Positions 2,936 through 62,600 of a DNA stretch of 64,000 bases are shown one piece after another; the first letter of the stretch is position 1, and every line of letters starts with the position of its first letter. The notes under the pieces were generated by a model. The model was not told the origin of the DNA and did no database searches. It saw only the letters and a list, made by a program, of their open reading frames with translations. Made by a program: the position numbers and the translations under genes. The stretch covers positions 2,681,501 through 2,745,500 of the forward strand of contig NW_027185501.1 in assembly GCF_040183065.1 (NCBI RefSeq), written 5' to 3'. The stretch comes from Periplaneta americana. Taxonomy: Eukaryota > Arthropoda > Insecta > Blattodea > Blattidae.

Positions 2936-5900
2936 ATGAATGCCAGTGAATCCATTAAATGCCTACTCTGCGATAATCGTAGAACTTGTGAAGAATATAA
3001 TTTAATTTTATGTGTAGAGTGTAAGTGCTGGTTCCATGGTAGCTGTGTCTATTTATGCAGTGATGAAGTAAAAGTCCTTGGTGAGTCTAACTCCCCCTGG
3101 CTCTGTCCATCTTGTTCATCAAAAGGTGGGACCCATAATATCTCAGCCCCTAATTATGTCGAATTAGTCTCATGCCCAATTTGCACTGGCAGTGATGCTA
3201 AATCTTACAAAGGCTTGAAAGGACTGTGAATACACTGGGCTAAGGCTCATCCCAATGAACCTCCTGACGACCTTCTGTTAAATTCAGAAAATACTTCTTT
3301 TGAGTTTTTCCATCAAAAGATTGCTAATTGTAAACTCAATACAAGAGTTTTAAGAAGAATTCCTAAAGGAGCTAGAAGCTTTGCGGCAGAAAAATTGACT
3401 CAACTTATTGATAAATGTATTTCCGAAAATAGTGAAGAATGTTGGCAAGAGCTTCTGCTTTTTGCATATATCGCCCTTCGGATACATGTTCGATCAAAGA
3501 AGAACTCTGACAAATCTTTAGTGTCTAAAATCAAAGAGAACATTAATGATTTTACACTGGAAGTTCCTCCCCGTAAGAATAAGTCTACACTTTCTAGGTC
3601 ACGCATTGTTGAAGCTAAAGTGGCAGACAGTGATATAAAGGGAGCTGTTCGAATTCTATCTTCTGATTCAGGAGTAGCTCGTGCTTCACGAGTTACACAA
3701 GAGGCTTTAGTACAAAAACACCCTCCACCATCACGGCCCGTGGCATTTCCAGATCCTCCTACCACCGATGAAGTGTGTTTGTCTGTATCTCAAGATATGG
3801 TTTTGCAAGGAATAAAAACCTTTCCTAATGGCTCTGCATCTGGTATTGATGGGATTCGTCCCCAACATTTAAAAGATCTCACATCCAAATCTGCTGGAGA
3901 TTTTGGTAGGAGACTCCTAAATGCTATTACTAGATTATGTAATCTAATGTTGGCTGGTAAAGTTAATCCTGAAATCTGTCCTCTTTTATATGGAGCATCT
4001 TTAATTGCCATCAAAAAGAAAAATGGCGGGATATGTCCAATCACAGTTGGAATACCTTTCGCAGATTATCGGCTAAGTTAGCTTGCACTTCTGTTAAGGA
4101 GAAAGTTAGTAAACATTTGCGCCCTCAGCAGCTTGGTTTTGGCACCAGTGAAGGATGTGAAGCCATCATTCACTCGGTACGTTCATTTCTAAATCAGAAC
4201 GAAGGCAGTCAAAATGTTCTTCTTAAGATCGATTTTAGAAATGCATTTAATTGCCTTGAAAGAGATACAATGCTTGAACTTGTTAAGAGCAAGATCCCTC
4301 AACTCTATGCATTCTTGTGGCAAGCGTATAGAAACCCATCTAACCTGTATTACAATTCTGACATCATTTCATTGCAGGCTGGAGTCCAACAAGGTGATCC
4401 GATAGGTCCACTGCTATTTAGTCTAACCCTGAATTCTGTCATTACCCATTTGAATAGTACCTTGAACCTCTTTTACCTGGATGACGGTTCTTTGGGAGGG
4501 GATCCAGATATGGTCCTTTCCGATCTTGAAAAACTTATAGATTCCTGTAGATCCATTGGGTTGGAGATTAATCCTGAAAAATGCGAATTATACTTATGCT
4601 CTACACAAGACGATACTGTAGTGTCCGCATTCAATAATATAGCTCCAGGGATTAAGGTAGTATCTCGATCTAATTTGACTCTCCTTGGATCTCCCATTTT
4701 TCTTCCCACTGTAGAGTCAAGTATGCGTGAAAAGCTTGAAATTATGAAGCAACTGTTTGATGGTCTGCAATCTCTTTCCACACATACAGCGTACTTTCTC
4801 TTAAAGAACTGTTATTTAATTCCTAAATTAACATATTTTCTTCGCACCACCCCATTATGGCTTTTTCCATCCCTACTTCAAGAGACTGATGATCTACTGA
4901 GAAACTGTCTGGAATCGATTCTCAGTATACGTCTTGAAGATAACAATTGGATTTTAGCCACTCTGCCTATTGCCTTTGGAGGTATTGGAATCCGGAATGT
5001 GAGTGATGTTTGTCTCATGCTTTCTTGGCTTCTGCATATGGAGTCCTTGATTTCGTCAAGTCCATTCTCTCAATTAAGGTGATGAAATCAGGATCTGTTA
5101 TGTGAATGAGGCTTTGGAGAAATGGTTCAGCATTACAGGAAACAACAACCTCCCAGCTTCTCGTGATATTCAGAAACAATGGGACCACATCCATGCCTCT
5201 GATATCTACCAGACTCTACTAGCGTCGTCATCGTCTGAGGTCGATCAAGCTAGATACCATGCAATACGACAGAAGGAATCAGGGTCTTGGCTTCAGACAA
5301 TACCATCTTCCAATATAGGCACATTAATGGACAATATGTCCTTTAAAATTGCTGTCGCCTTAAGACTCGGGTCCAAGATTTGTTTCCCACATAAATGTCT
5401 TTGTGGAGCCACTGTTGACCCCTATGGTCACCATGGCTTAAGTTGCCCCAAAAATACCGGGAGATTTTCCAGGCACTTTCAATTAAATGACATCATTAAA
5501 AGGGCACTTGTCTCTGCTGATTTTCCATCAATCCTGGAACCTATTGGAATCTGCCTATCTGATGGAAAAAGACCAGATGGATTGACCTTGATACCCTGGT
5601 CTCATGGAAAATCTCTGCTACAGGATGCCGCTTGTGTTGACACTTTAGCACCATCCCATTTGCCTGCCACCTCCAAAGTTGCTGGTTCTGCTGCAACATC
5701 CGCAGTGACCATCAAAAGGAATAAGTATCGGGATCTCCAGGACAGATACTTGTTCTGTTTTTGTTGTTGAGACGTTGGGACCTTGGTGCTCAGAGGCTAA
5801 AATGCTGGTTTCAGACATCGGGAAAAAGTTGCAAGCGTTCAATGGAGATTCCAGGTCGACTGATTTCTTGAGACAAAGAATCGCTATTGCTATCCAGCGT

Positions 5901-5969
5901 GGGAATGCTGCCAGTGTTATGGGGACATTCCCTCAAACACTGGCTTTGGAGGAAATATTTTATTTTTAA
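2936..5969 (+). pseudogene. LINE polyprotein with PHD finger, reverse transcriptase and C-terminal restriction-like endonuclease (decayed)
   Basis: The N terminus carries a Cys4-His-Cys3 PHD-type finger (CLLC...CVEC..WFHGSC...LCPSC) and then a C2H2 unit (CPIC...H..AHP). The reverse transcriptase shows GSASGIDGIRPQHL, LGFGTSEGCE, LLKIDFRNAFN, GVQQGDPIGPLLFSL and FYLDDGS. The C-terminal part has a CCHC (CLCGATVDPYGHHGLSC), GRFSRH and KRPDG..LLQD, the signature of R2/CRE-type restriction-like endonucleases that nick the target for reverse transcription. Breaks: TGA at 3227-3229 (arginine in the sister copy), a frameshift near 4055, stop plus shift near 5082-5100, and a shift near 5762. The sister copy at 20499-23525 is one frame except for a single stop, giving about 1,009 residues. 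Confidence 0.85.
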
Positions 5970-6338
5970 AATTCAAAATATTGGCCTACTACCGGAATCA
6001 ACTGCGTTTGTTGACGCAACAAGACTTGAAGAGTCTTGAAGGAATTCTGTTGGAAGACGTTCAGGAATCTTTGCCACATTGTAATAAAACCCTCAAGGCT
6101 CTGCAGAATGAGATCATTATACATCTCGCGACCGATTGACAAGAAGAAGATTGTGTTCTTCACAAACAAGACAGCAGCTCTGCCTGTGGACGATGAGTTC
6201 CAGAAACTCTGGTATTCTGTGGTAGTTGAGAGCACGGATAACCTGAAGATAGAGGAATATCTGGAGAAACAGGGAATCTGCTCCATGGAAGATCATAGAT
6301 CCACGAAGGCGACACTCCACAAGCGTAAGAAATTGTAA
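5970..6338 (+). pseudogene. TfIIEbeta: TFIIE beta subunit fragment (intronless) joined to LINE unit 1
   Basis: Reading begins right at the LINE stop codon with KFK...LRLLTQQDLKSLEGILL, EDVQESLPHCNKTLKAL, then after one frame slip near 6115 SRPIDKKKIVFF, NKTAALPVDDEFQKLW, KIEEYLEKQGICSMEDH and KRKK. I recognise this as the C-terminal third of the general transcription factor IIE beta subunit (compare fly EDVQESLPHCEK, DDEFQKLWRS and EYLEKQGIRSMQDHG). The N-terminal half is absent, no introns interrupt about 120 codons, and similarity stops at KRKK before the basic tail. It is a reverse-transcribed mRNA piece, not the working gene. Confidence 0.88.
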
Positions 6339-8765: not shown

Positions 8766-8869
8766 TCGCCTTTTAATCAATTATTTATATTGAACCTTTC
8801 TCTCACGTCAAAGAGGACTTCTCTGCTAAACAACCCTTACCTAATTTTGCTATATGACAAGAGTCAAAC

Positions 8870-18534: not shown

Positions 18535-18725
18535 CACAGTCTAATATATTATAGTATATACAGTCACGAAGCTCAATACGTAGGGAATATGCATCCATAG
18601 ATAGTTGCTAACCACTAGGACCGCTACTATCGCCTCATCACAGACAATGCGAAATAGTACCGGCACAGTCTATTGTTCCTAGTACCCTAACAACTCAAGC
18701 TTCGGACTGTATACATTAGAATGTG
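18535..18725. mobile_element. 191-bp MITE, copy 1, 7-bp target duplication AAGCTGG
   Basis: Starts CACAGTCTAATATATT and ends inverted CACATTCTAATGTATACAG; the conserved inner part is TATACAGTCACGAAGCTC. AAGCTGG flanks both sides exactly (18528-18534, 18726-18732). Related copies lie at 24177-24367 and 33291-33473. Confidence 0.85.
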
Positions 18726-19570: not shown

Positions 19571-19799
19571 AAGTAAATGATAACATTCTGGATCTTAGTG
19601 ATAGCTATAGCACTCTTTTTACACTGTAACATTTCCTATATACTGCTAATAATATATTAACTTCTTGAGTTTTTATTTTTTGTAAACACTGAAACGGAAA
19701 GTCATGAAATTTCTAAATAAACACGAATATTAGTGTAATACTCGTATTACAGAAGTTGTTTCTGCCGCTCTGTTATGACTCGTACACCCGCAGAGTTTC

Positions 19800-20395
19800 T
19801 CAGGATGGCTTGATCTTGGCTGCGTCTGCCTTCTTCTTGGAGCTCTTCGCTCTCGTCTTGAAGATCGCAGGGTCAAGGTGGTTATACGGCATGTCACACC
19901 AGTCCACGTTCTGTGTGAGTGGGTTATTCACATCAGATTGGAGCAGATGCGGTGCGTTCAACACGAACATTTGCTCAGCCCATGGTGTTAGGTCCATGGG
20001 CGTGAATTTGAACTGCCACTGGGGGAGACTCTGGTGTACCAGCATCATGCGGAAGTACTGCCTGAAGTCTGCAGCCAGGTAGTGCCACTCGAAACTTCTG
20101 TCCAGCAGCCAGATCTTGGGGTCCTCTCGTTTTAGATCGGAATCGCACTCGCTTTTGTCCATGTACACCAGACACACCTTTCCGATGCCTTGGCAAGCGT
20201 CCAGTTCGAAGATCTTGCACTTGACGCCGAAGTTGGGACGCTGCCTGGGGTCGTCCTGCTCGCTGCAGATCTCGATGTCCAGCAGCGTGGGGCATTCCGC
20301 ATCGCCCATGCTCTTGACGCCGGCCAGCCGCCGTAACTCAGACATAGAGTTGATCTTCATGTTGCTGATGGGGAGCACCTCGCCTTGTGGATATT
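19800..20395 (-). CDS. TPGS2: TPGS2 (tubulin polyglutamylase complex subunit 2) C-terminal fragment, intronless and open
   Basis: The open reading begins EYPQGEVLPISNMKINSMSE and continues CKIFELDACQGIGKVCLVYM, KIWLLDRSFEWHYLAADF, YFRMMLVHQSLPQWQFKF, LDPAIFKTRAKSSKKK, ending at 19800. It matches the C-terminal two thirds of TPGS2 (vertebrate equivalents: AINSISKL, FELDSCNGSGKVCLVY, FLDRALYWHFL and LPQWQYAF), a scaffold of the enzyme that adds glutamate chains to tubulin. About 198 codons remain of roughly 300, with a lysine-rich tail. The absence of introns, stops or shifts and the missing N terminus indicate a fairly young reverse-transcribed piece carried by LINE unit 2, not the functional gene. 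Confidence 0.85.
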
Positions 20396-20401
20396 CTCGA
20401 C

Positions 20402-20495
20402 CATGGCTTCATTAAAGATCGGACATCCTCCCTCCTTTCTTCATGGAAGTTTTGTTCTTGTGAACTTTCTACCCATGCTCAAGCAGGTACGCTAC
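20402..20495 (-). pseudogene. Synaptotagmin-type C2B domain fragment joined to the LINE
   Basis: Directly after the LINE stop the minus strand reads VAYLLEHG, stop, KVHKNKTSMKKGGR and, after a one-base slip, CPIFNEAM. The pattern YL...G..-K.KT..KK...P.FNEA is the core of C2 domains of the synaptotagmin family (Syt12-like by resemblance). It is about 31 codons, truncated on both sides and not intron-interrupted. With TPGS2 following immediately, it looks like a short mRNA piece trapped between LINE and TPGS2. Confidence 0.65.
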
Positions 20496-20498
20496 ACA

Positions 20499-23400
20499 TT
20501 AAATGAGAAAGATCTCTTCTAACGAAATAGAGTTAGGAAATGATCCCAGGATGGAGGCAGCATTCCCTCGCTGAACCGCTATTCCAATGCGTTGACGAAG
20601 GAAATTGATACATCTAGGATCGCCAGTACGGGACAGTAGGCGTGCACCAATTTGGGTGAGTAGATCTTTAGCGTCTCTACACCACGGACCAAAGGTCTCA
20701 ACTGCAAAAGCGACGAAGATGTAATTTGATGTTAAATGTTCATATTTGCGTCGTTTAGCATGATAAGCAGATTCAGCAGCAGATCCGGCACAATTGACAG
20801 ACGATTTTAAATGGGAAAGGGCTAATGTATCTACACATGTAAAATCCCAGATGAGTGATTTACCTTTGGACCAAGGAATTAATGTCAAGCCGTCAGGTCG
20901 TTTACCATCCGACAGGCTAATACCAGATGGTTCAAGAAGAGTTGGAATGTCACAGGAGGTTAAAGATCTACTAATGATGTTATTAATAGCAGAATGCCTA
21001 TGAATGCGACCTTTACTTCTGGCACAGCTTAAGGCATGATGACCAAAGGAATCCACAGTCTCTCCACATATACATTGGTGTACATGGCAAATTTTGCAGC
21101 CCAGACGCAATGCAGTAGCGATTTGGAAAGATTTACCGTCCATCAAGGTACCAACATAGGAGGAAGGCAGAGCATGGAGCCAAGATCCAGATTCCTTCTC
21201 TTGGAGAGCTTTAATACGAGCGATGTCCTTGTCAGATGTGAAAGAGGATATAAGAGAATCAAGTATTTGACCTGCAATAATCTCATCCCAGGCTTTTTGA
21301 ATGGCTGGATTCTGGGGAGGAGCAAATTTATTCGTTTTTTCGTACCACTTATTTAAAGCTTCAGGAACATAGCAAATGTCGACAGCATCACTGTAAATAG
21401 GGAAAATAAATTTGATGAAGTCAATAACGCCAAAGACTGAAGATAAAAAAGCTGGTATACAAATATCAGTAAGTGTACGAATACCGAGGCCTCCTAATTT
21501 AATTGGGAGAGAAGCCTGTACCCAACTGTCGTTGTCAAAAGAAGTATTTAAAATAGATTGTAAAGACTGCTTTAATAAATCATCTGCCTGCTGGAGAAAA
21601 GTAGGAAAAAGAAATAAGGGTGTAGTTCTTAAAAAATAAGTGAATTTAGGGATTAATAGGCAATTTTTGACAATGAAATAAGAGACTTGGGGGTGAAAAT
21701 GTTCAAGACGACCAAACAGAGTTTTCAGGAGCTCCAATTTTTGAGTAGCTATTTCATCAACAGAATCTAAAAAGATGGGAGAACCCAGGACGGACAGATT
21801 TGACTTTGTGACAGTTTTAATGCCAGGAGCAATATTCTGGAAAGAAGATAAAATATTTGGGTTAATAGCAGAACAAAAATAAATTTCACATTTATTAGGA
21901 TTAATCTCAAGACCAAGTTCGGACCCAAGATGAATGATTTTCTGTAGATCACAAAGAACATCATGGGAATCTCCAGCTAAAGTCCCATCATCCAAATAAA
22001 AGAGATTTAAGTCACTAGTTAATTTTTGGATGAGGGAGTGGACTGTAAGACTGAAGAGTAAAGGCCCTAAAGGGTCTACCTGCTGACAGCCTGTTTGTGA
22101 TAAAATAATTTTGGAATTAAAAAATAGATTGGACGAATATCTATAAGACTGCCAAATAAAAGGGTAAAAGCTGGGGAATTTTTCTAAAAAAGAGTTTAAC
22201 ATGATATCACGTTCAATGCTGTTAAATGCGTTCTTAAAATCTATCTTCAATAGAATTTTATCTGAGTTATCATAAGTATGTAAGAAGGATCGTACAGAGT
22301 GTATAACAGATTCACAACCTTTAGGAGAACCAAATCCTAGTTGATGAGGTCGAAAAATATGACCACTTCCAATCTTAATAGCGTGACAAATAATTTTAGA
22401 AACAAGGCGCCTGAAAGTATTACCTATTGCGATTGGGCGTATGCCACCGCCAGGTTTATTAACTGCAAGCAAAGAGGCACCAAAGAAATTTGTACGTACA
22501 TTATCATTTAATTTACCTTGAAACAAAAAATTGCAGAGATTAGTTATGGATGAAAGGAGCTTTTTACCAGAGTCACCAGCTGAAATGGACACTAGATCAA
22601 CTAGATGCTGAGGTCACAGACCATCAATACCAGAAGCAGATCCTTGAGGGTAACTTTTAATGGCGTGTAGGACATCAGATTCAGAAAAAGATGGGTGATT
22701 TGCAGTAATAACAGGAGCATCAGGAAAAGTAGATGGTCGAGAAGGAGGCGGGTGTTTTGATAATAATTCTTCGTAAGTAAGTTGATTGTATTCAGCTATC
22801 CCCATATCGGATGATAATATACGAACAGCGTTGCGAATGTCTCCTTCAGCAATTTTCCTCTCTATACGTTGCGCCAGGGAGATATGTGGTGACTTCTTCT
22901 TAGTACGAATAGACTCGGTGAAAGAAGGATTTTGAAAATTGTTTATGTTTTCCTTAATCTTGGAGATTAGTGATTTATCAGTAGACTTTTCAGGAATATG
23001 AAGAGCAATGTAAGCATAAAGCATTAAATTGATCCAATGGGCTTCGGCATTAAACGATATACAAAGGTCAATCAGATGTCGAAGTCGGTCCGCAGCCAAT
23101 GGGCGAGCTCCCTTGGGGATTCTGCGTATGACAGCAACAGATTTCTTGCACTGTACGAGTATGGAGTGAAGCTCTTCGTGGGTGATATTTAAGGATGGAA
23201 TTGCATCTTGAATGTCAGAATGTACACGTGAGTGATGAATGCGCAGACCACGAGTACCTCTAAAAAGTCTAGTATCACCTGATGGACAATGTGGGCACGG
23301 AATATATTCATCAGGTTCAGTGATAGCACTAATATGTGTAGAAATATCAGAAGAACTTTCTGCTGCAGATGGGGTAATATCCAGCGAAGAATCTTCTGAT

Positions 23401-23525
23401 GTATGACATCTCGAAACGTGGGTATTGATGCCTCGATGAGTAAAAGATTTACCACATAAATTACAAGTCACAGAAGAAATGTTAGTAGATTCAGGAGTAC
23501 ACAGAGGGATGTTGGTTGACATCAC
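20499..23525 (-). pseudogene. LINE polyprotein: two C2H2 fingers, reverse transcriptase, restriction-like endonuclease; one nonsense codon
   Basis: Two zinc fingers lie near residues 21-41 (CNLCGKSFTHRGINTHVSRC) and 75-100 (CPHC...H..RVH). TGA at 22614-22616 follows GSASGIDGL where the sister copy has CGA (arginine), and the frame then continues for about 700 codons. Counting from the methionine at 22592: IDFKNAFNSIERD 117-129, QQVDPLGPLLF 170-180, FYLDDG 198-203, GGLGIR 367-372, CCHC from CICGETVDSFGHHALSC 507-523, KRPDG 564-568 and IWD 581-583. These are the R2/CRE-type parts: DNA-binding fingers, RT, CCHC and PD-type nuclease. The RT motif QQGDP reads QQVDP, a probable inactivating change. 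Compared with unit 1, the first finger is C2H2 rather than PHD. Confidence 0.9.
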
Positions 23526-23947
23526 TGATAAATTAAAGTAGAACGCGTAAATAAACTAGACGAAGACGAAAACTGAATGAAATTAATTAGTTAATTAATA
23601 ATTGTAAGCACTGTTGCTATGTAAAATCAACAAGTCTGTAAAGTCACTAGAAAACACACTGAATTTCTTGAATATTCACATGACGAAAAACATTCCTAAT
23701 ACATACATGAAGAAACAAAATAAGTAAGTCTTCAGATAATCAAGAGTTAATCCAGTTAAGGATATTAATCACATAATAATAAACGTTTGAAATGAAAGAG
23801 AAAACAAAGTACACATGTTACGTATCTACATATTTTTGTACCCTGGCTGTAATTATGTGCTGTATTGACTTATAAGTCATCATAAACACTAAGCTCACTG
23901 TTGCAGAAAAAAAAATGAAATAAAATGAAAAATGAAAGTAAATGATA

Positions 23948-24176: not shown

Positions 24177-24367
24177 CACATTCTAGTATATACAGTCACG
24201 AAGGTCAATACGTAGGGAATATGCATCCATAGATAGTTGCTAACCACTAGGATCGCTACTATCGCTTCATCACAGGCAATGCGAAATAGTACCGGCACAG
24301 TCTATTGTTCCTAGTACCCTCAATAACTCTAGCTTCGCGACTGTATTTACTAGAGTACTAGACTGTG
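24177..24367. mobile_element. 191-bp MITE, copy 2, 7-bp target duplication ACAATAC
   Basis: Same family as 18535-18725, identical length, with high similarity throughout (CAATACGTAGGGAATATGCA, CCACTAGGATCGCTACTATC, CTATTGTTCCTAGTACCCT). ACAATAC flanks it exactly at 24170-24176 and 24368-24374. Confidence 0.9.
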
Positions 24368-25021: not shown

Positions 25022-27679
25022 CACAGGCGAAGTTATGGGGTGGCATGGGGGCACTGTCTCTCAACTTGTCTCGATTTTTTTTTCTATTAACGCTAGAAAA
25101 TATTGAATTCAAAAGTTTTTTTTTGCTTTTGTTTGTGATTAAGTTTCTGTGCTTAAATTGATGAATTAATGTCTTCAAATCATGTGTCTGGACTATAACA
25201 TTATTTTAAATTTCTGAATGTATAAGAATTGCTATACCTCATTTGAGGAATGGAAGCACTGTAATGGTTCCTTTGTAACAGCCTGTTGTACTCACGTGTT
25301 AGACGTCTGCAGGTGTTCTCCACTTGGAGAAATATGAATAACACTGCACAACAATGCAGAAAAAAGAAAAGTGATAAATAAAATAATTAGAGTTTACATT
25401 TCATATTATATCTTCAGAAAGATAAACTTCATATACTGTTCTCCAACTAGGAGATCAACCGTGAAAGGGATGTGCTTACTATTGCGTCATCTATTGGAGC
25501 GAAGTAGATAGATAATATTACCGTTATAACGTCAGTTTAAAAATCTGCGCTCTCCTGCATATGTTATTTCCTGTATGGAGAGATTAAAAGACCAGGAGAT
25601 TAACAGTGACCTAATTTTGTAACTAGGGTAGTATCAATATGTGTGTGTATCAATGTTATCGTTTGTGCTGTGGGAGCTAGCCAGTACAGATACGAGTACC
25701 CACGTGTGTGACCATATGACATCTTATGACATCAACATTCATTCACAGCATTACCCCGCTTCGTCTCAGTCCCCAAAGACTTTCTCGTGGTTGGAGTATA
25801 GTAAAACGTTTCTGTTAGCACTGTTACGTAGTTTTATTGATGTATTCATGTGTTTCTGTATAAGGGAGAAAAAGAGGGAGATTGTTTTAAGTTGTACCCT
25901 ATTACAGGGATGTCAAGGTCAGATGGACGTACTCGATTCTCCGTGCTATAAAGTACTGAGTGGTTGGAATGAATCTATTCTCCAGGCAGTAGCTGTGATC
26001 AAGAAGGGGTGAGCAAAATTAACTCTATTGACCTACCAGTGCTTTTAAGCGATAGATGTGTTACATTCATATAAGACAACAAGAAATCAAAGCACTTTTA
26101 CAGCATGTATCTCTCTAATAAATGCAATTAATTATAAAATAGTAGAATTTAATAATAAACATAGACTCTTCTTAACTTATATAGTTTCAGATAATAACTA
26201 GGATCTAATTAATTGTTATATAGTTATCGAATAATACAATTAGCACATAAATGCTGCGTTTGTGTTTTAAACTAATAAAAAAAGGAAAATAAATAACAGG
26301 ACATTTTGGATATGGTAAAATGAAATAATAGGCCTACAACAAATAATAAACATATGTATTATATATTCTCTTAACTTAAGCAGTTTAGATAATGAGGCCT
26401 ATCTAATTAATTTCTATGTAACTATTACATAATCATATACTTAGTATATGAAAATCGCACTAGAAACAAATTTAAATTTCTGAATTGTCACCTAATTCAG
26501 AAGTGTATTTTTTGCCTCTTAGATCGGGCGCATATTATCATCTGACAATCCTGATCTTAGTCTTGGTTTTTTAGATTTACAAGTGAGAAAAATTGCTCAC
26601 ATACGTACGTACTTCCAAATATAGAAATAAATTGCACCGCAAATCTTCATATCCCCGAATATAGTATATCAGGAATTAAAGCTTTGTAAAATGTGAGAAG
26701 AACTTCCCTATCATAGAGGGTATTTGCTGGTGCATCATTGATGAAGTCAATACTTTCTAACGGAAGACCTGAATTGGCAAACATCCCAAGTCTACTGAAG
26801 TATTTTTTTTTCAGGACAGCAAAGAAACTATATATTATAGGTTCGCAAAATAAGAATACCTATTGAAATAAAATACTTTTATAATTAAAAACACAGGCCT
26901 AGACATGGACGTGGGCTATTCTTTTTTGCAGGATGGTAATCTATGCAAAACACAACATGTTAGATAAAAAAAATCGAATTCGATAAATTTTGCACTTGCA
27001 ACTCGTAACTGACATGTAACGTGTCTACGTTATTAACTTATTAGCAACATACTCTTTTGTTTGTACTTCATTCTGTAAACTAAATACAATATATTGAGGA
27101 AGAAGCTCTACATAAATCTACACATATATTTACTACTATTTAATGTCAATAAAAACGCAAAATGTGAATACATCATTCTGTAGATCAAAAATAATTTCAG
27201 GCATTGACACTGCTTCTCTTTGTAACTAAATCATTTCCACATACCAAGCAAAGAGCATCACCTCATCTTTCACTCACATACGAAGTCAAGAGTCCAGTCA
27301 ACCTGAAACTTACTGAATGATTTCTTCGTCAATGTGTAATGTACAACCCTTGTGTTCACCAGTGACTTATACCTGCGTGTCCTACATGCTCTGAGCAGCG
27401 CATACGTGCTGTGAGGCACGTTTGCTCTCTCGTTGACATCACTGCCCTATTATAATTTGTAGTAGACCTACAGTTCAAGCCCTATACAACTCTGTCCGAA
27501 AAATCGCGGATATGGATGTAACACATGCTCCCCTGAAATATCTTTATTAAATGATCATATTCCGATATATTGTACCATGGGGAGGAGGTAAATAATGTCC
27601 CCCATAACCCCGTTATATGGGGATTCTATCATTTTGCTTTGCCTCCCCTCCCCCAAGGAAACGGTTCTCTCCGCCTATA
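25022..27679. mobile_element. hAT element A (2.66 kb), long relative of element B
   Basis: Left end CACAGGCGAAGTTATGGGG and right end (inverted) TATAGGCGGAGAGAACC. Flanks CCTATCTA and CCTCTCTG are a plausible decayed 8-bp duplication. Blocks at 25022-25420, 25798-25905 and 27440-27679 are shared with the short element at 33504-34278, while about 25440-25797 and 25906-27440 are present only here. The latter carries a hAT C-terminal relic on the minus strand. A 123-codon open stretch at 25641 looks accidental. Confidence 0.7.
26480..26830 (-). pseudogene. hAT transposase C-terminal relic inside element A
   Basis: The minus strand reads NTLYDREVLLTFYKALIPDI, then RFAVQFISIFGSTYVCEQFF and SLVNLKN. 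The FA..-S-FGSTY-CE--FS motif is the conserved hAT dimerisation region of GTF2IRD2/EPM2AIP1-like hAT transposases. Several stops follow. It supports hAT ancestry of the element but is far too short for a gene. Confidence 0.6.
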
Positions 27680-30249: not shown

Positions 30250-31334
30250 ACTCATTTTAAGTTATTGAAATTCAGTTCCATGCTCAGACTTTATTATAAT
30301 TATCTGCACTGTACACCACCAGAATTTTTTCTCAATTCTCCACAATTTCAAGAATTGAAACAGAAAATCAATATCCCAAATTTAAAAGAAAACTTACAAA
30401 TTAAACCAAACCCCTTAATTCTATTAAATATAGAATATAATCTAAATTTAACAGAAGAAATACTGAAATCAGAAGTAAACACTGAAATAATGGAACAATT
30501 GTCTTTAGAGACAATTAATATTAGGTACCCTCCACAAAACTGGCTTCATTTATACACCGACGGATCCTTGATCTCCAGAGAACAAGGTGCCAGTGCAGGT
30601 GTTACGTGCTGTCTCTTCTCACTTTATAGATCTCTTGGATATGGAACAACAAGTTTTGATGGAGAAATCATTGCAATAAGTGAAAGTCTCAGGAATCTTC
30701 TATGCCACATCAATAAATTTAAAAATGCAGTTATATTGTCAGACTCCAAAGCAGCTATTCTATCAATCGTCTCTAAACACACACCTTCATCTCAAACAGC
30801 AGAAATAACTAAAATGCTCTCCCAATTAATATCACTCAATAAAAGAATTGTATCCCAATGGATACCATCCCATTGTGGAATCCTGGGAAACGAGAATGCG
30901 GATGATTTAGCAAAGAAGAGCAGCACTGCTACTTACAGATCTGTTACTAAATCTACGTATTACTCTGTTAAAAGATTTATTAAATCTACATACTTAGACT
31001 TGAACAAAGAAAATTTGATAACACAATCCCAAGGGAAAAAAATGGAACTCTCTGCATCAAAATCCACAGTTAATTCCCGATTTACCACGAAAATCATCTG
31101 TAGCTGCATTTAGATTGGCAACAGGCCATGATTGTTTGGCCAAACACCTGCATAGAATTGGAATATATCAGTCCCCTAACTGCCCATTGTGCAACTCAAA
31201 CCAAGAAATGGATTCGGAACACCTCAAAATCTGTGCTTCAGTGGCTGGCCATGATAATATCTTTGAAAAATATTGGAGTGGGAGAGGTCAAATGACTTTA
31301 CTGTCAAACGCCTGGCATTAGAAAACAACAACAT
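30250..31334 (+). mobile_element. LINE Y, 3' part with RNase H domain
   Basis: The open stretch to 31113 covers the end of the reverse transcriptase linker and a complete RNase H: LHLYTDGSLISREQGASAG, FDGEIIAISESL, AVILSDSKAAILSIV and QWIPSHCGILGNENADDLAK carry the catalytic D, E, D, D pattern. After a frameshift near 31085 the C terminus follows: FRLATGHDCLAKHLHRIGIY, SPNCPLCNSNQEMDSEHLK and FEKYWSGRGQMTLLSNAWH. It ends TTAGAAAACAACAACA. An RNase H after RT is typical of I-clade LINEs (I, Nimb, LOA and relatives). 5'-truncated; only one clear break in over 1 kb, so fairly young. Confidence 0.88.
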
Positions 31335-33058: not shown

Positions 33059-33290
33059 ATTGTAAGAAAATATCACAAAATGCACCTCTATAATGCAACT
33101 GAACTGTATCGTAACACAATTAATAATAGAACTCCGTACAGCACGTGTATAACATCACAACACTGTAAACAAATCCGTTGCTACGAAACAAAGCACAGAC
33201 GGTAAACCAGGTGTACCAATACACATAAATTCCCTACAATGAAAAAATTTCGCACATAAGGCGCAAAATTTGAAACTAACATAGTAGTAT

Positions 33291-33473
33291 CACAGTCTAG
33301 TATATACAGTCGCGAAGCTCAATACGTAGTAAATATGCAAACATTAGATAGTTGCTCACCACTAGGATCGCTAATATCGCCTCATTACAGGCAATACAAA
33401 ATAGTACAGTCACAGTCTATTGTTTCTAGCACCCTCAAAACTCAAGCTTCGTGACTGTATATAGTAGACTGTG
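33291..33473. mobile_element. MITE of the 191-bp family, copy 3, diverged
   Basis: CACAGTCTAGTATATACAGT at 33291 and inverted CACAGTCTACTATATACAGT ending 33473 give the clearest terminal repeats of the family (about 30 bp). Flanks GTAGTAT and GTAGTGT form a 7-bp duplication with one mismatch. Confidence 0.85.
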
Positions 33474-41011: not shown

Positions 41012-43095
41012 GACGTAACCTTTGATAACAAGTTATCCTGGAAACAACAAGTGGAGAAAATTAGCTCCCAAACTTCAAACCAACTGAGGATCCTAAAACG
41101 CCTTCCAGGATGCAAATGGGGATGTGCTCGCTCAACTTTAAGCACTACATATCAAAAGTATGTTCTTCCTGGAATGTAAAACACACAATTGGTCGACTCT
41201 AAGACTGTAAAAATAACTGCTGTGGATGCCATGTTGACCCTCAGAGAGATCCATGCTGTTGTATGAAGAGCTAATCAGACTATCGGATGGTCAATACTGG
41301 TACAAATACGAAAATAAGAAAGAAACCCCAAAACACAACATGGATTTGTGAAGAAAGTACATCAGCTAAAAGAACAATATTCAATTATATCAAATGAACC
41401 CCAACCCATAATACAGAATCCAACTGAAATAGAATCCCATGACTGCTTCACAGACCTAAACCAAAGTGTTTTTAAAAAAGGAACGGACACAATGAGTCTA
41501 AAGCTTTTGGCCTTGGAGACTATCAACAGTAAATACCCAGAACCCGAATGGCTCAAAATATACAGCTACATCTTCACTTTTTATAAATTTAAATTTAACA
41601 GAAGAAATACTGAAATCAGAAGTAAATACTGAAATACTGAAACAATTGTCTTTAGAGACAATTAATATTAGGTACGGTACCCTCCACAAAACTGACTTCA
41701 TTTATACACCGATGGATCCTTGATCTCCAGAGAACAAGGTGCCGGTGCTGGTGTTATGTGCTGTCTCTTCTCACTTTATAGATCTCTTGGGTATGGAACA
41801 ACAAGTTTTGATGGAGAAATCATTGCAATAAGTGAAAGTCTCAGGAATCTTCTATGCCACATCAATAAATTTAAAAATGCAGTTATATTGTCAGACTCCA
41901 AAGCAGCTATTCTATCAATTGTCTCTAAACACACACTTTCATCTCAAACAGCAGCAATAACTAAAATGCTCTCTCAATTAATATCACTCAATAAACGAAT
42001 TGTATTCCAGTGGATACCATCCCATTGTGGAATCCTGGGAAACGAGAATGCGGATGCTTTAGCAAAGAAGGGCAGCACTGCTACTTACAGACCTGTTACT
42101 AAATCTATGTATTACTCTGAAAAGATTTATTAAATCTACATACTTAGACTTCAACAAACAAAATTTGATAACATAATCTCAAGGGAAAAAATGGAACTCT
42201 CTGCATCATAATCCACAGTTAATTCCCGATTTACCACGAAAATCGTCTGTAGCTGCATTTAGATTGGCAACAGGCCATGACTGTTTGGCCAAACACCTGC
42301 ATAGAATTGGAATATATCAGTCCCCTAACTGCCCTTTGTGCAACTCAAACCAGGAAATGGATTCGTAACACCTCAAAATCTGTGCTTCAGTGGCTGGCCA
42401 TGATAATATCTTTGAAAAATATTGGAGTGCAAGAGGTCAAATGACTTTATTGTCAAATGCCTGGCATTAGAAAACAACAACAACTATTTATAAATCCATC
42501 GGATCATTCAAAACAGCGTTTGATGGAGAAATCAAGCCATTCAAACAGCATTAAACCAACTTCTACTGCATCTTGAAAAATTCTCTAAGACTGTCATCCT
42601 GAGTGATTCAAGATCTGCCATAGAATCAATTGGTGCAATTGAGCCTGCTGCATCAGTGGAGATTCATGACTGCTGTGAGACACTGAGGAAACTCAAATTA
42701 GCTCCCTGTGGATCCCTGGACACTGTCACATTTCTGGCAATGAACAGGCAGATACATTAGGAAAAAAGCTGCCATGCTCACTAGTTGCTTCAAATCAGTA
42801 TCATACCATTGCTCTAAACTCTACAAATGAAGGAACAATACCTCATGAGTTTAGAATCAAACTGGAAGACTTTTTTACATGGCCAAGACAAGAAGCTCTA
42901 TCAGTTTGGGTTACTTCAAACGCCCACCTGCATGCTCTGTAATCTGGATGAAGATATGGACAGGGCCCACTTAATGTGATGCCTGGCCCTTCGCAGAACA
43001 GAAACTATTGGGAAGCCTGGATTAAGATAATGAATCAGATGGACAATTGATGACTATTTGTTAATGTTCCATGCCATTAGAGAAATAAATAAATA
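41012..43095 (+). mobile_element. LINE X2 (RNase H LINE), interrupted by LINE Y
   Basis: The left part reads VTFDNKLSWKQQVEKIS, LRILKRLPGCKWGCARSTL (RT thumb) and LLALETINSKYPEPEWLKIY (start of RNase H). After the LINE Y insertion (41589-42486) it resumes YKSIGSFKTAFDGEI, ILSDSRSAIESIGAIEPAAS and WIPGHCHISGNEQADTL, ending in AGAGAAATAAATAAATATT. TTTATAAAT occurs at 41580-41588 and 42487-42495, the duplication of the inner insertion. Many stops and shifts; older than LINE Y. Same general I-like group, different family. Confidence 0.75.
41589..42486 (+). mobile_element. LINE Y copy inserted in LINE X2, 9-bp duplication TTTATAAAT
   Basis: 5'-truncated LINE Y starting at TTAAATTTAACAGAAGAAAT. 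RNase H frame 41720-42133: SREQGAGAGVMCCLFSLYRS, FDGEIIAISESL, ILSDSKAAILSIV and WIPSHCGILGNENADALAKK. A frameshift near 42120 follows, then the decayed C terminus (stop in place of S in MDSEHLK) and the usual TTAGAAAACAACAACAAC end. Very similar to 30250-31334. Confidence 0.88.
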
Positions 43096-53525: not shown

Positions 53526-55303
53526 CCACTGATGATGGTTTTAGTGATAAACTATTTGACATACTAAGGAATGCTTGTAGTAAGATAACTGAGACTGACA
53601 AACTGTGTTGCCTTATGTGGGATGAAATGTCTTTAAAAGCAAACTTGTGCTACAATAGTAATGAAGACATCGTAGATGGCTTTGAGAGGTATTCTGGCAA
53701 TTATTCATCAGATAGAATTGCCAACCAAGGTCTTGTGTTTATGGTTAGAGATATTTGAAGTAATTACAAACAAGTTCTGGGCTATTTCTTAGCACATTCA
53801 AGCACCCCTAGCAATACATGAGTTGAACTCATTGTCAAAGCAATAGAGAAGCTGAGAAGCATTGGTTTAAAAGTAGTAGCTACTGTTTGTGATCAGGGCT
53901 CTAACAATCAAAAGGCGTATCATTTATTGGAAGTTACTACAGATCAGCCCTCCTTTACAGTCAATGACAGGAAAATTGTAGCATTTTTTGACAGTCCACA
54001 CTTGATTAAAAGTACACGAAACATGTTCAAAAAGTATTCTGCTAAGTTTTACGATAATTACACTGCAAAATGGGAGCACATTGTGCAGTTATATAACTCA
54101 GATAAAGACAATGAGTTTCGTGCGACTAAACTAACTGATAAAGATGTTTATGTGTCTGGTTTCAGAGTTACGAGGGTGCACACAGCAGCAAGAGTTTTAA
54201 GTCATTTGTTTGCTGCAGCCATTCTCATGATGTCATCTTTTGGGATGCTTGAAGGAGGAGTACACACTGGAAAATTCGTAGGTTATGTGGATAAAGTTTT
54301 TGATTCATTAAATGGCAGAGTGATGACGGACATTATGAAGCCATTATGTGGTGCAGTGAAGGAAGGTACCAGCCGCCATGGAGTCTGGGAGGAAATGGCG
54401 AGTTTTTTTCAGTCTGTCCAATTTATAAATACTGAGGGAAAGACAATACATGCACCATCCACATATGGTTGGGTACAAAATTTTTATGCTGCAAAATTGT
54501 TGTGGGAGGTTGCTAAGAAAGAGGGCATGCACTCACTTTTGATGGGGAGGATAAACCAAAATTGTTTGGAAAATACATTTTGTATAATCAGAAGGAAAGG
54601 TGGTAATAGAGACAACCCTTCGTGTAACGACTTTTGTTATGCTTTCCGAGCAGTTGCTGCCCAGAATATGCTAATATGTAGTGACAAGGGAAATTGTGAA
54701 ATTGACTATGATGTTGTCCTAGCATCTATAGGGTCAACAGGTACTAGTTGTGAGATGGTGGTTAACCCACCAAACTCTGAGGTGAATCAGTTCATTGCAC
54801 GCAGTTGTAATTTCTCTGATCTGAGTAATGATCTTGTTAACAGGAATGCTATGTTTTATGTTGCTGGTTATCTTGCCAAAAAGCTCTGTTCTGCAAAACA
54901 GTGCTGTAATTACTGTTGCACAGCTGTTCTTGACTCTGAAAAAGTCCTCCCAGCTGGTATAACATTTCCTATTTTTAAGGAATATGAAAAAGTTACGAAT
55001 GGTCTCCAATATCCTTCAGCGAATTTACTTAAATGTGTTGAAGATATGACACATAAGTTTGATAATAACTTCAAAAACCTGATTTCTATGTCTGATGTAG
55101 TACAGAGATTTACTAGCCTCATTCAGGATGAAGTTTGTTTTGATTTCCTTGCACCTAATTGTAATTCTGATTGTAAAAGATATTTGGTTTCGTTGTTCAC
55201 AAGAGTGCTGATTCATGCAAGATTACGGCGAATGAATGAAAATCTGTCAAGTGATGATTACAGAAAGGAAGGAAAGAAAATGAAAAAAGTCCTGCATCAA
55301 TAA

Positions 55304-55535
55304 AATGGAGTTTTATGTAATATAATTTCAGATTATATTACATTCATGCTATTTAATGTTAGCAATTTATTGGTGCAAGATGAATTTTGTTTTTTTGTTT
55401 TTTTTTTTTTATATTATCAGAAGACATATTTTCATTCAGTTTTCTGAGTCTTGCATTGATTTAACATTATAGTGAGAAAAAAAATAATTTTTGCATTCGA
55501 AGTTACAGTGTGAAAGAAAATCAAAATTAACACTA
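55304..55535. other. Junction between two P transposons
   Basis: AT-rich with T runs; the 3' ends of P transposons 2 and 3 meet here tail to tail. No terminal repeat recognised. Confidence 0.4.
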
Positions 55536-57340
55536 TCATGAATAAAGCTCATTAAATTGCTTTATTATATCATTGTTTGACAGCAGATTTTCTAAGCTGT
55601 TATGAAACATTTTGGTCATCAGTGTTACACATTCTAATAAATGCGTTGAGGGCAACTGAGGATCTTCATTTACTTTTTCATATTCTTTGAACATGAATGT
55701 TATGCCCTCTTGTAAGTATTTTTCATTTCTGAAAGAGCTGCACGACAATAAACACACTGTTTAGCATCACATGCCTTCTTACCAATATAACCAGCAATAT
55801 ATTATAATGCATTTGCATTCACGATCTCATTATCAACATCGGAGAAATTAAAAGATTCCCTCACCAGCTATTAACCTCTTTCACAATTTCATTTGTTACT
55901 ACTACATAACATTCTTTTGAGCAGCAATGCCCGATTACTGTACTGAATATCATTGCAGGAAGAGTTATCTGGCTTGTTCTACCATCCTTATTTCTAATTA
56001 TGCAAAAGTAAATCTCTAAATAATCTTGATTAATACTCCAAATTTAGAGCGAGTGCATATCAGTGTAAATTTTTAACAACTTCCCATAGTAATTTTGCTC
56101 CATTTAAGTCATAAATTCAACGAGATGTGGATGGCACATGCACAGTTTGTCACTATTTATAAAATTGACACTACTAAAAATTCAACATTTCATTCCAGGC
56201 GAATACATGCATAGACTTTTCTTCCACAGCCACACATACTGTCTTCCTATTCTCGAAAACTGTACTTCCATTCAGTGAATCAAATGTCTTGTCCATGTTG
56301 CCTACAAATTCTGCTCTATGTGTGGCATCTCCTGCATGTACTGCCAGTCTTGGCTAGCAGGAAATGTCTGCAGCTACTGCATGGCTTAATGTCCGTGTTT
56401 CCATTTTCCTATATCGGTCTTGAACTATTGCATTATACTTTTTCGACATATTTCGTGTACATTTTAAGAGATGGTTTGTGTAAAAAAATTAAACAATTCT
56501 TATCTGACCATTTGCTGAATAGAATGGTTGATCTGGCTTTACCCCAAGCAAGATGTAAGCTTTTTGATTATTAAGCCTATGCTCATATACAGTTGCTATT
56601 ACCTTAAGGCCATGTTCTGTAATGCCTGAATTGCATTGAAAATAAGATCTACTAGCTATGTATCAGGAGTACCGGAATTTGTTAAAAACTAATTCTGTAC
56701 CTGCTTGTAATTATGACAAAGACCAGTTGCCGTAAACACACACAAGCACCTGATTTGCAGTTTTACCTGATAATGAGTGTTTTCCAAACCTATCAACAGT
56801 ATCCTCATTATTATTGCTACAAGTTAAACTGATATTTAGTGGCATTTCATTGCACATGTGACAGCGCGGCTCACCTGGCAGTCATTTTGTCACAAGCATA
56901 TTTTAGCTCATATAATATTTTCTCACAAAATCAGCATCATTTGTATATTTAGCAAACTTATGTAGAAGTATGGCTTCAGAAGGAAATTTCAATGACTTTC
57001 TGAAAATTCTGTTGCACTTGGACTTTGTAAGTAAATATTAAGGGTTTTACATTTCAATTCTGATGAGCAGTGACATCCCTGAGCAAATTGTGAACAAGAG
57101 CTGTACAATTTCTTTATTGGTTCATGTAATTGCTTAGGCACAACTTGCCTCATTGTGTACAGGGCTTGTTCTGTCTTCAGTTCTTCTCGTACCTTGTTTT
57201 CCCTTTCCATACTCTAGCGGTACAGTTGGATGCGAAGACTTCGAATTTTCCTCCTTTTTGGTGTTACTGTCTTTCCGGAAGAGAACGGGAGTGAATGTTG
57301 TTCAACTATTTCTGTCTGCATTCTAAGTGGAGAAACTTCT
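55536..57340 (-). pseudogene. P-superfamily transposon 3 relic, tail-to-tail with copy 2
   Basis: The minus strand, in order: VEQHSLPFSSGKTVTPKRRK (about 57330-57260), MERENKVREELKTEQALYTM, SSELKCKTLNIYLQSPSATE, SLKFPSEAILLHKFAKY, CHMCNEMPLNISLTCSNNNE, ANQVLVCVYG and, near the end, LQEGITFMFKEYEKVNEDPQ, LPSTHLLECVTLMTKMF. Each block aligns with copy 2 (TPKRRKIR, KTKALNIYLQSPSS, MWDEMSLK, ANQGLVFMVRD, LPAGITFPIFKEYEKV). It is more decayed than copy 2, with many shifts and a large loss in the middle. No THAP exons were recognised. Confidence 0.75.
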
Positions 57341-59643: not shown

Positions 59644-62600
59644 GGGGTCAGGAGGGGTAAATATGACACACAGAGAAAGTGGGGTAGAACAAGTTTATTA
59701 TGCGTATATTTTAGTAGACAAAAATATATATTTAATTTACAACACTCTTCAGTAAGTATAGAAAGATCCTTTACAAGATAAAGAATGTAAGAAAATATTT
59801 AATGAATTTGGGGGTGGGGGGAAATGCATGCATACTAATTTTCGTAGAACAAATTCAAATTTTCCCTCCAAACTTTCCTAGTTATTTTGTATCTACACGG
59901 TTGGGTGAACTGTTACCAGGCTTTATAGCAGTCATAGTGCTTTCTGTTAGTTTGCTGCAGAGTTGATAGAGAAATGGTGTTGTTTGAAGATTTGAAATTC
60001 AGTTTCAAAAGAAAATATTGAAGAGGGGGAAAAAGAAGACAGTCAGGTAAGAGCATGTGCAATTACTCGCAGTGATATTGTTATTGGTGCTTTTGGAACC
60101 ATTGCTATTTTGGCTGCATCATTTGTTGCAGGTTGACTAGCATTGTGTACTGCCTAGGTCTAACCTATAAAATGCCTAGGTCTTATGCGAAAAAGAATAA
60201 AATCAATGAAGATGATGCACAGAGTGCTGTGGGAGAGTGGAAAGAAAAGAAAGATTCACTGAGAAACATTGCAAAAAAGTACAATTTAGAAAAATCATTA
60301 TTAAGTAGGCGTATTTCTGGACAGGTGTTGCAGAAACGTGGAAGAAAGACAGCAATAAGTTTAGAGGCTGAAGGAAAGCTGGCTTCTCATTTAAGAGATA
60401 TGGCTCAGTGGGGATTTGCTTTAACCACTAAGGAAATAAAAAATGTAGCAGCTGACTATGTTTCCCAAAATAACATCAGTACACCCTTTAATAGCAACAC
60501 AGGAAGGCCAGGAAAGGATTGGATGACTAATTTCTTACGAAGACATAACCTAAGCATTAGAAATTTGGAGAAATTATAGATGAACAGTAGAACAACCACT
60601 GCCGATCCATTTATCATATATTAATTTTATGATAGATTAGAAGAAGTCACTGCTTCATTAGGCATTGGGGGTAAGCCATCTCATATTTATAATTTGGATG
60701 AGACTTACATTTGCAGTAATCCTGTAAGATTGAAATGTGTTGCTGGTAAAGGTCAGAAGGCACATCAGAATGTACAAGGATCCGGCAAAGACAACACTAG
60801 CATTCTTGCTTGTTGTTCAGCAGATGGAAAAGTGCTTCCTCCATTAATAATTTTTACTGGTCAGCACTTGTGAACAACTTGGAAAGGAAAACATGACATA
60901 AAAGGAACTTTTTATGCAAGTTTTGACAAAGGGTATATGACTTCAGTCATTTTTCAAGATTGGTTTACAAAATTATGTAGTCTGGTTAAAGAAAGGCCTT
61001 TGCTATTAATATTTGATGGATATCTATCACATTTGGACCTGACAACTCTAGAAAAAGCTAGAGAGCAACATATTACCATATTAAAGCTTCCTCCACACAA
61101 CAGAAACCCTTCAGCCACTGGACAAAGCATGCTTCAAACCTCTGAAGGGTATGTGGAATGAAAGACTACAAGAGTGGCAGCACCTTAATATGAGGAAAAC
61201 ATCTCGATATGAAATGGTGGATTTGTTGTGTGGAATATGGGAGGAAAGCATTTCACAAAAAGCTATCCGAGCAGGGTTTAATTCAACAGGGATATTTCCT
61301 TGTAACAGAGAGAAATATCCGAAACATCGTTTAGATCCTGGTAAATTAGAAAAATATTATGCAATGACTACACAAACAGGCCATACAAATGAGGTAGTTA
61401 GTCCTACCACAACTCCATTACCTGTTAGAGAGTCAGAGCCTAAGGCAGGACCTTCAAATGCATCAGAGCCTGGAACTCTTACCATAACGGTATCTCCTGT
61501 TGGAAAAGAGTCTCTTGCAGGGCCTTCGAATATATCAAATAGGCCTCCTACCACAATTGCATCACTCATTAGCAAGTCACAGCCTCTTCCAGGACCTTCA
61601 AATACATCAGATGGGCCTGAACCTATCAGTTCTCTTGAGCAAAACTGTGGAAAGAGCAGTGTCACTTTTGCAGATTTGCTGTTACAAGTTAAAAAGACTA
61701 CTCCCATTCCTGAAACAAAACAACATAGTGAAGTTGTTACGTCAGAAGAGTATATGACTTTGATAAAGAATAAGTGTGGCAAACTGAAAAATGGTAGACC
61801 TAAACCTGTAGGAAACAGAAAAACTAAGTTAGGAAAGCAGAAGAGAAACATACCAAAAGATCCTGAAACTTCTGAGGATGAAGAATGGCTGGAAAGCGGT
61901 GATAGTTTACAGGACATTGATCTCTTAGAAGATGAACCTGCAGAAATATGTGAGGTGATTGAGCCAAATGAAGTGAAGATTGGAGATTATGTGTTAGTTC
62001 AGTTTAAAGGCGGTAAAAGAAAAACAGTTATTTATAAATATGTTTGTGTTGTACAGAAAACATATCCTGTAACTGATGAGTATGATGTAATGTGTATGAA
62101 TATGATATCTGGAAATAAGACTCTTTTCAAGTTGAATGAAGCAGATGTGTCACTAATTCACAAAAATGATATTATAGGCATACTTCCAGTACCATTTATG
62201 TCTTGCACTGGACAACATATGCAATATTGCTTCGCTCAGCCAGTTGATGTGTGTGAAAAGTAGGCCTAATATGTGCAGGTTGTCTGGAATGTTTTTCAAT
62301 CATTTTTGTTTAATACTATCTGAACTAAACTAAGATAAACATAAATCAGCGTCTAAAAGGCCTCATGGGTTTGTTTATTTCTTATAAAAATGTATTTTTT
62401 TAATGAAAATTAAAAGTTTGTTCAGCATACTATACTTAAAAAAAACTGCTGTGTCTTATTTTTGCACTCCCATTCCTGTAGCTCTCTTAGGTATGGAGAT
62501 TGAATGCTGTCTTTTATTTACCCCCAACTGTCTTCTTTTTACCCCATTTGGTGGGTAAAAAAAAAAGACACTTTTTATTTTATTGATGAAAAAATATATA

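Follow-up and report, generated by a model that had tools for sequence, protein, structure and literature searches.

Structure of the locus

Here we describe a long interspersed nuclear element (LINE) of the American cockroach, Periplaneta americana, that carries pieces of host genes directly behind its final stop codon. The element, LINE A, lies on the minus strand of a 64,000-nucleotide stretch of contig NW_027185501.1 (GCF_040183065.1, positions 2,681,501 to 2,745,500), called the window throughout and corresponding to C20:2681501-2745500 in the genome that we searched (3,231,669,367 bases in 91 contigs). Behind it stand a remnant of a synaptotagmin C2B domain and the 3' part of TPGS2, and a 12-bp direct repeat encloses the whole. 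The features are as follows, in window coordinates.

19571..19582, no strand: target-site duplication, left copy (AAGTAAATGATA); the empty site L092 has it once
19583..19670, minus strand: 88 extra bases past the usual 3' end of the family, inside the duplication (copy ends and empty site)
19671..19799, minus strand: TPGS2 3' untranslated region (alignment to the native last exon, L087)
19800..20396, minus strand: TPGS2 coding 3' part with stop codon; exon joint at 19973/19974, next joint placed presumptively at 20383/20384, and likewise the upstream end, which takes in 13 bases of the exon before
20399..20498, minus strand: synaptotagmin C2B remnant, frame broken (sister copies, PDB and Pfam)
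20499..22592, minus strand: LINE A frame with reverse transcriptase and C-terminal domain, to the stop codon (open reading frame, RVT_1, PDB relatives)
22614..23525, minus strand: LINE A frame, N-terminal part, same frame, with a stop at its end (open reading frame)
23526..23816, minus strand: LINE A 5' untranslated part; in other places copies stop at this point or some 20 bases beyond it
23817..23935, minus strand: 119 additional bases at the 5' end, within the duplication (family 5' ends and empty site)
23936..23947, no strand: target-site duplication, right copy (same 12-mer and empty site)

LINE A is open over stretches of 303 and 697 amino acids in one frame, with one stop between them. 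It contains the Pfam domain RVT_1 (E 9.3e-23), and its best solved relatives are R2 (1.7e-7) and LINE-1 (1.6e-6). No pair of long terminal repeats (LTRs) was present inside 19583-23935 among the listed self-matches of more than 60 bases. A PD-x13-D motif can be seen by eye in both LINEs of the window (the second, LINE B, is treated below), and Pfam gave no match for a restriction-like endonuclease; the predicted structure of the LINE A C-terminal domain was too poor to use (predicted local distance difference test score of 35). The single fixed target site of R2- and CRE-type elements is not seen here, as fetched copies have unrelated flanks.

Copy counts throughout are lower bounds. A probe from the LINE end gave matches of 98-100% in all 40 places scored (of 1,057 candidates), which points to a young family, and a probe across the junction matched in all 40 scored of 533. 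A young LINE peak that includes CRE-type elements is described for the American cockroach assembly PAMFEO1_priV1 (PMC12774602). The 5' end of the family falls at window position 23815-23818 in 29 of 33 rows outside the duplicated block that surrounds LINE A; seven of ten fetched 5' ends continue as AGAAGGCCATGATTTAATAAT and three do so in part, and the window copy lacks AGAAGGCCATGATTTAATAAT.

The inserted unit and its empty site

The 12-mer AAGTAAATGATA is found at both 19571-19582 and 23936-23947. When the flanks of the unit were joined (200+200 bases) and searched against the genome (40 rows scored of 747 candidates), one of the 40 rows aligned unbroken, at 99%, to C8:142011752-142012152. 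This empty site (L092) contains one AAGTAAATGATA, and its 50 bases on each side are letter-identical to the window flanks. Sixteen other rows are the two halves of 8 filled copies, and the remaining 23 represent a relative of the flanking repeat at 79-83% that is also continuous across the insertion point. The empty site therefore sets the bounds of the insert: the inserted unit is 19583-23935 on the minus strand and consists of the LINE, what is left of the synaptotagmin C2B domain and a spliced 3' portion of TPGS2.

A target-site duplication with a matching empty site is a mark of non-LTR retrotransposons, and the initial annotation, which had taken the 12-bp repeat for a real insertion mark and called for a search for the empty site, is borne out by the single 12-mer on C8 in the same assembly. 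Chance had been considered as the source of the repeat since independent copies end near 19671; the empty site ruled it out, and when the flanks were shuffled with dinucleotides preserved, a common 12-mer appeared in 3 of 400 trials for 200x200 bases and in 0 of 400 for 100x131 bases. The annotated limits of the unit hold for what was inserted at this site; the usual ends of the family lie near 19671 and 23816. On the strand of the LINE, 19583 has no A-run next to it.

Flanks of more than 1.4 kb are common to the 8 filled copies, at 99%, and these copies are therefore not separate insertions; they are one insertion multiplied by duplication of the surrounding block. Reading the 8 full-query matches as 8 insertions was ruled out by these common flanks. 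The empty site itself sits in a ninth copy of the block, where a copy of LINE B is present at C8:141998099.

Host origin of the tail

The TPGS2 part has 192 open codons and is identical to human TPGS2 at 67 of 181 residues (37%; E 7e-41); it found no match in PDB or Pfam. An N-terminal piece of the human sequence finds one place in the cockroach genome, on another contig (C3:189325851-189326015), and the native last exon (C3:189307919-189308108), 18 kb from that match, is 89% identical to the LINE tail. This exon begins at CAAATGTTCGTG after the intron end TTTCCTAG. The intron end is missing from the LINE tail, and the host part therefore derives from spliced RNA, with the native gene elsewhere. 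The intronless TPGS2 piece proposed earlier is thus confirmed by the exon joint at 19973/19974, where a search for native exon-exon junctions, suggested at the same time, located one; the alternative named with it, a native TPGS2 at this locus, is contradicted by the gene on C3. Measured against processed retrocopies, the TPGS2 piece and the TFIIE-beta piece behind LINE B are both intronless relative to their native genes. The TPGS2 piece lacks a duplication and poly(A) tail of its own, the duplication at LINE A enclosing LINE and host part together.

Ahead of the next exon the LINE has GAATATCCACAAG, where the end of the native exon is GAATATGCAG. The two agree in frame (E-Y-P-Q-G as compared with E-Y-A-G), so that the start of TPGS2 probably lies 13 bases into the exon before. 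This sequence rules out a joint of C2B and TPGS2 exactly at an exon boundary, which would imply intron trapping.

The synaptotagmin piece begins 2 bases after the final stop codon of LINE A. About 31 codons of C2B had been annotated there; the piece is present, and its reading frame is broken in the window copy, which has 5 and 1 extra bases relative to the copy L090 and on its own reaches E 0.19 only, a weak match. Sister copies read on in frame as VYLLQHGKKVHKKKTSMKKGERSPIFNEAMVFSVPA and match synaptotagmin-1 in the PDB comparison (E 3.5e-9, chain residues 174-212) and the Pfam C2 domain (E 3e-5). Two copies, L090 and L091, have the same LINE end and C2B with no TPGS2, and among relatives of L090 all 40 places scored (438 candidates) run past the point at which the window copy switches from C2B to TPGS2. 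The window C2B stops at GCCATGGTC and is shorter than that of L090. The existence of LINE plus longer C2B as a lineage of its own argues that C2B came first and that TPGS2 joined later, to a C2B already shortened. The source synaptotagmin gene was not found by the C2B probe, which matched mainly LINE copies (150 scored of 402 candidates); rows at 52-65% identity may be other C2 genes.

That TPGS2 serves the element as an accessory gene kept by selection is very improbable. Its frame is open in most full-length matches, as such a role would have it; yet in ten copies residues change at 2.12 times the rate of bases against 2.16 expected without selection (a rough test, as the base identities are rounded and also cover LINE and untranslated sequence), and many copies have lost the TPGS2 end. 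In the copies compared, TPGS2 appears to drift neutrally as a passenger, with no sign of retention at the protein level.

Multiplication and exchange of tails

A TPGS2 protein probe returned 151 rows (150 places scored of 303 candidates), 8 of them block copies. Row ends allowed 150 of the 151 to be typed: 32 end at codon 191-192 and keep the TPGS2 end, 13 at 172-173 (B-like), 76 at 128-131 (C-like), 19 at 109-114 (D-like) and 10 elsewhere, counts to whose shortened classes frameshifts may add. Copies picked by their TPGS2 end point were then compared at the joints. Joint B breaks at 19861 in 6 of 6 copies, joint C at 19991 in 8 of 8 and joint D at 20068 in 5 of 5, with the same new sequence following in each class and a second split of 2 versus 6 in C and 2 versus 3 in D. 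The insertions that have these identical joints are independent of one another. Another copy, L076, breaks at 20044 into a microsatellite. In twenty fetched copies with the TPGS2 end preserved, agreement with the window ceases at 19670-19677 (7), 19685 (12) or 19742 (1); those that diverge at 19685 share a different short end, with ATAGAAATTAAAATTTTTACGAGTA in the longer ones. The tail is therefore carried to many sites and has been swapped repeatedly, and after each swap the older tail survives, cut short, as a stump beside the LINE stop codon. Since the stumps lie next to the stop codon, they record the order of events: LINE stop, C2B, TPGS2, newest tail.

It had been suggested that the chimera arose locally, by serial jumps from TPGS2 to C2B to the LINE. 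Such a single reaction at the window site would leave the clean duplication and empty site that we see; it is contradicted by the C2B lineage free of TPGS2 and by the 151 TPGS2 rows elsewhere and is scarcely credible. The chimera was not built at the window site, and many insertions have inherited it finished.

A common AT-rich repeat (TATAATATTGTACAACATATAAAATAT...) was seen by eye beside the LINE 3' ends of L091, L050, L054 and L065, and may be a preferred target or a tail source.

A second LINE with a TFIIE-beta tail

On the other strand, the window holds a related element with a different host gene:

3116..5969, plus strand: LINE B, frames broken (self-comparison; 45-60% of residues identical to LINE A)
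6002..6335, plus strand: TFIIE-beta (GTF2E2) piece behind LINE B, preceded by 5970-6001 (PDB, Pfam and copies)

The host piece was identified by PDB (E 1.4e-17) and by its Pfam winged-helix domain. Clear similarity begins mid-exon at 6002, 32 bases past the LINE B stop, and the window copy leaves TFIIE-beta at 6335. The native gene lies on C7, and one of its exon ends falls inside the captured piece: the LINE B tail is continuous (CTCAAG|GCTCTG) where the native exon continues GTAATT. TFIIE-beta accompanied LINE B in all 40 places scored (411 candidates), which agrees with the earlier view of this architecture as a habit of the clade. Nine of those rows are block copies, four others cover the whole query and 27 stop at query position 626-636. 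Among four fetched copies, three continue the TFIIE-beta frame to an end reading NEHLA...YDDK plus stop, which we take to resemble the end of human TFIIE-beta, and the fourth turns to another tail. The TFIIE-beta tail is spliced complementary DNA (cDNA), and it too has been swapped.

The surrounding block

Most of the window belongs to one block, about 99% identical in at least nine places (C1 twice, C2 twice, C6, C8, C13, C20 and C25), which may be a segmental duplication or a very large mobile element. Followed further in 4 copies, it shares at least 28 kb; the match starts at window base 1 or close to it and extends to 28716 in three copies and beyond 50000 in the fourth. Alignments break at 8785-8791, where several copies are longer by about 45-50 bases at 8791, and at 26029-26032, with a 9 kb insert at 26032 in a C1 copy. 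A short direct repeat occurs three times around the insertion (18548-18720, 24180-24354 and 33288-33468; 87-93% alike). Elsewhere the window contains two copies, 95% identical, of a sequence with an RNase H frame (30439-31333 and 41586-42482), frames with TNP-like GTP-binding and RNase H transposase domains (53927-55300 and 227-763), an inverted self-match at 65% (54805-55853) and the DNA-binding domain of a Tc5-type transposase (60133-60576).

Formation of the chimeras

Based on these observations, we think it probable that the two elements represent a LINE clade with an exchangeable 3' tail, several of the tails being 3' pieces of spliced host messenger RNAs (mRNAs). Such a clade would be autonomous, with a replaceable tail in place of a fixed 3' untranslated region. 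The swap would occur during target-primed reverse transcription: the enzyme would begin with a different RNA, in many cases the 3' portion of a host mRNA, copy some of it and jump to a 3'-shortened LINE RNA. With the host piece copied first and the complete LINE second, the product would be a whole mobile LINE with a new tail. The stop codon would be the sole barrier, stumps shrinking up to the stop and not past it, in the manner of a one-way ratchet. Capture of genomic exons as DNA is excluded by the spliced origin, and the host piece stands 3' of a complete LINE, which argues that the host RNA was copied first.

A template jump is the likely event at each joining; about half of our belief goes to jumps, a third to read-through and the rest to ligation or other routes. 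Tail exchange at the level of the family is independent of this choice. Jumping is favoured by the mid-exon starts (of TFIIE-beta and probably of TPGS2), by the high share of mRNAs among the identified tails and by the copy L080/L069, in which the LINE tail and an A-run are followed by about 53 unrelated bases with no second A-run and then by a shared 12-mer. The reverse transcriptase of R2 is described as jumping between templates in vitro (PMC8857657).

The main rival, doubtful to our minds, is read-through (3' transduction) combined with splicing, in which a 3'-shortened LINE lands in a gene and its transcript, spliced through downstream exons and ended at the gene's poly(A) site, founds a lineage. 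Such a route accords with the tail of L038, which follows the native TPGS2 3' untranslated region to AATAAAGCT, and with the existence of 3'-shortened copies in unique flanks (L056, L076). It requires that copies landed within coding exons of three host genes or immediately ahead of them, a small fraction of the genome; L069 has no second A-run ahead of its 12-mer; and a start within an exon means that the gene copy was broken. Ligation of host and LINE RNAs before reverse transcription, with one continuous RNA then copied, is unlikely; it is reported for LINE-1 chimeras according to PMC8857657, and it predicts the same data as jumps here.

Several points weigh against our proposal of template jumps and exchangeable tails. 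The joining step is deduced from sequence comparison, and the same source holds that jumping may be dispensable in life and that the LINE-1 chimeras of mobility assays arise from pre-ligated RNAs (PMC8857657). The tail designated C2 resembles, by eye, a genomic repeat in the flanks of L050 and L054, which fits read-through, and transduction of flanking sequence could account for the extra 88 and 119 bases in the window copy. The native exon that follows the TPGS2 joint was not found by a pattern search, which matched only a LINE copy on C16. The empty-site comparison covers the window insertion alone, and target-site duplications are weaker elsewhere, with at least 9 bp shared in 4 of the 10 copies for which both flanks were available, compared with 7 of 90 mismatched pairs.

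We further suggest, tentatively and at somewhat less than even confidence, that the clade gave up its fixed 3' end, takes almost any RNA 3' end and persists through the ends of host mRNAs, with the stumps as a record and new tails that may evade silencing. A clade of this kind could, by gaining a new tail, slip silencing aimed at the old one.

Comparison with known systems

To our knowledge, LINE chimeras with host RNA are known as scattered and mostly dead insertions, and our literature searches of open-licence papers found no LINE family with host-gene tails. In the reversed order seen here, with the host piece 3' and the whole LINE 5', the chimera stays mobile and breeds. A by-product thereby becomes a heritable change of the element. 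The captures form a dated series within a single genome and provide a natural test of whether a LINE depends on a 3' end of its own. The many copies of TPGS2, TFIIE-beta and synaptotagmin pieces are also a trap for gene annotation, and the scattered pieces might give rise to antisense or small RNA directed at the native genes.

In LINE-1 3' transduction and in SVA-carried exons, host 3' sequence is moved, sometimes spliced, and the element's own 3' end is kept; in LINE A, unlike these, the host C2B starts 2 bases after the stop codon. The TPGS2 tail resembles a processed retrocopy in being the intronless 3' part of an mRNA, and differs in lying inside the duplication of the LINE, with which it moves, having no insertion of its own.

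Magnaporthe grisea has bipartite and tripartite LINE chimeras that are similar in that several transcripts are fused in one insertion; they show a direct repeat of 14 bp, and a double template switch has been proposed for them (Gogvadze et al. 2007; PMC2104539). As that paper outlines them, the LINE fragment is copied first, RNAs are added 5' and the LINE is incomplete, whereas in the cockroach the host piece is 3' of a LINE that is whole up to its stop codon, and a lineage has grown from the chimera. The resemblance to R2 jumping is that a non-LTR enzyme joins separate RNAs into one cDNA, in the R2 case in cell-free biochemistry (PMC8857657). R2 is described as depending on its own 3' RNA (PMC3414825), whereas the cockroach clade seems to accept many 3' ends. 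Like Pack-MULEs and Helitrons, these LINEs are mobile elements that multiply fragments of host genes; those are DNA transposons, and here the fragment is spliced cDNA carried in a retrotransposon.

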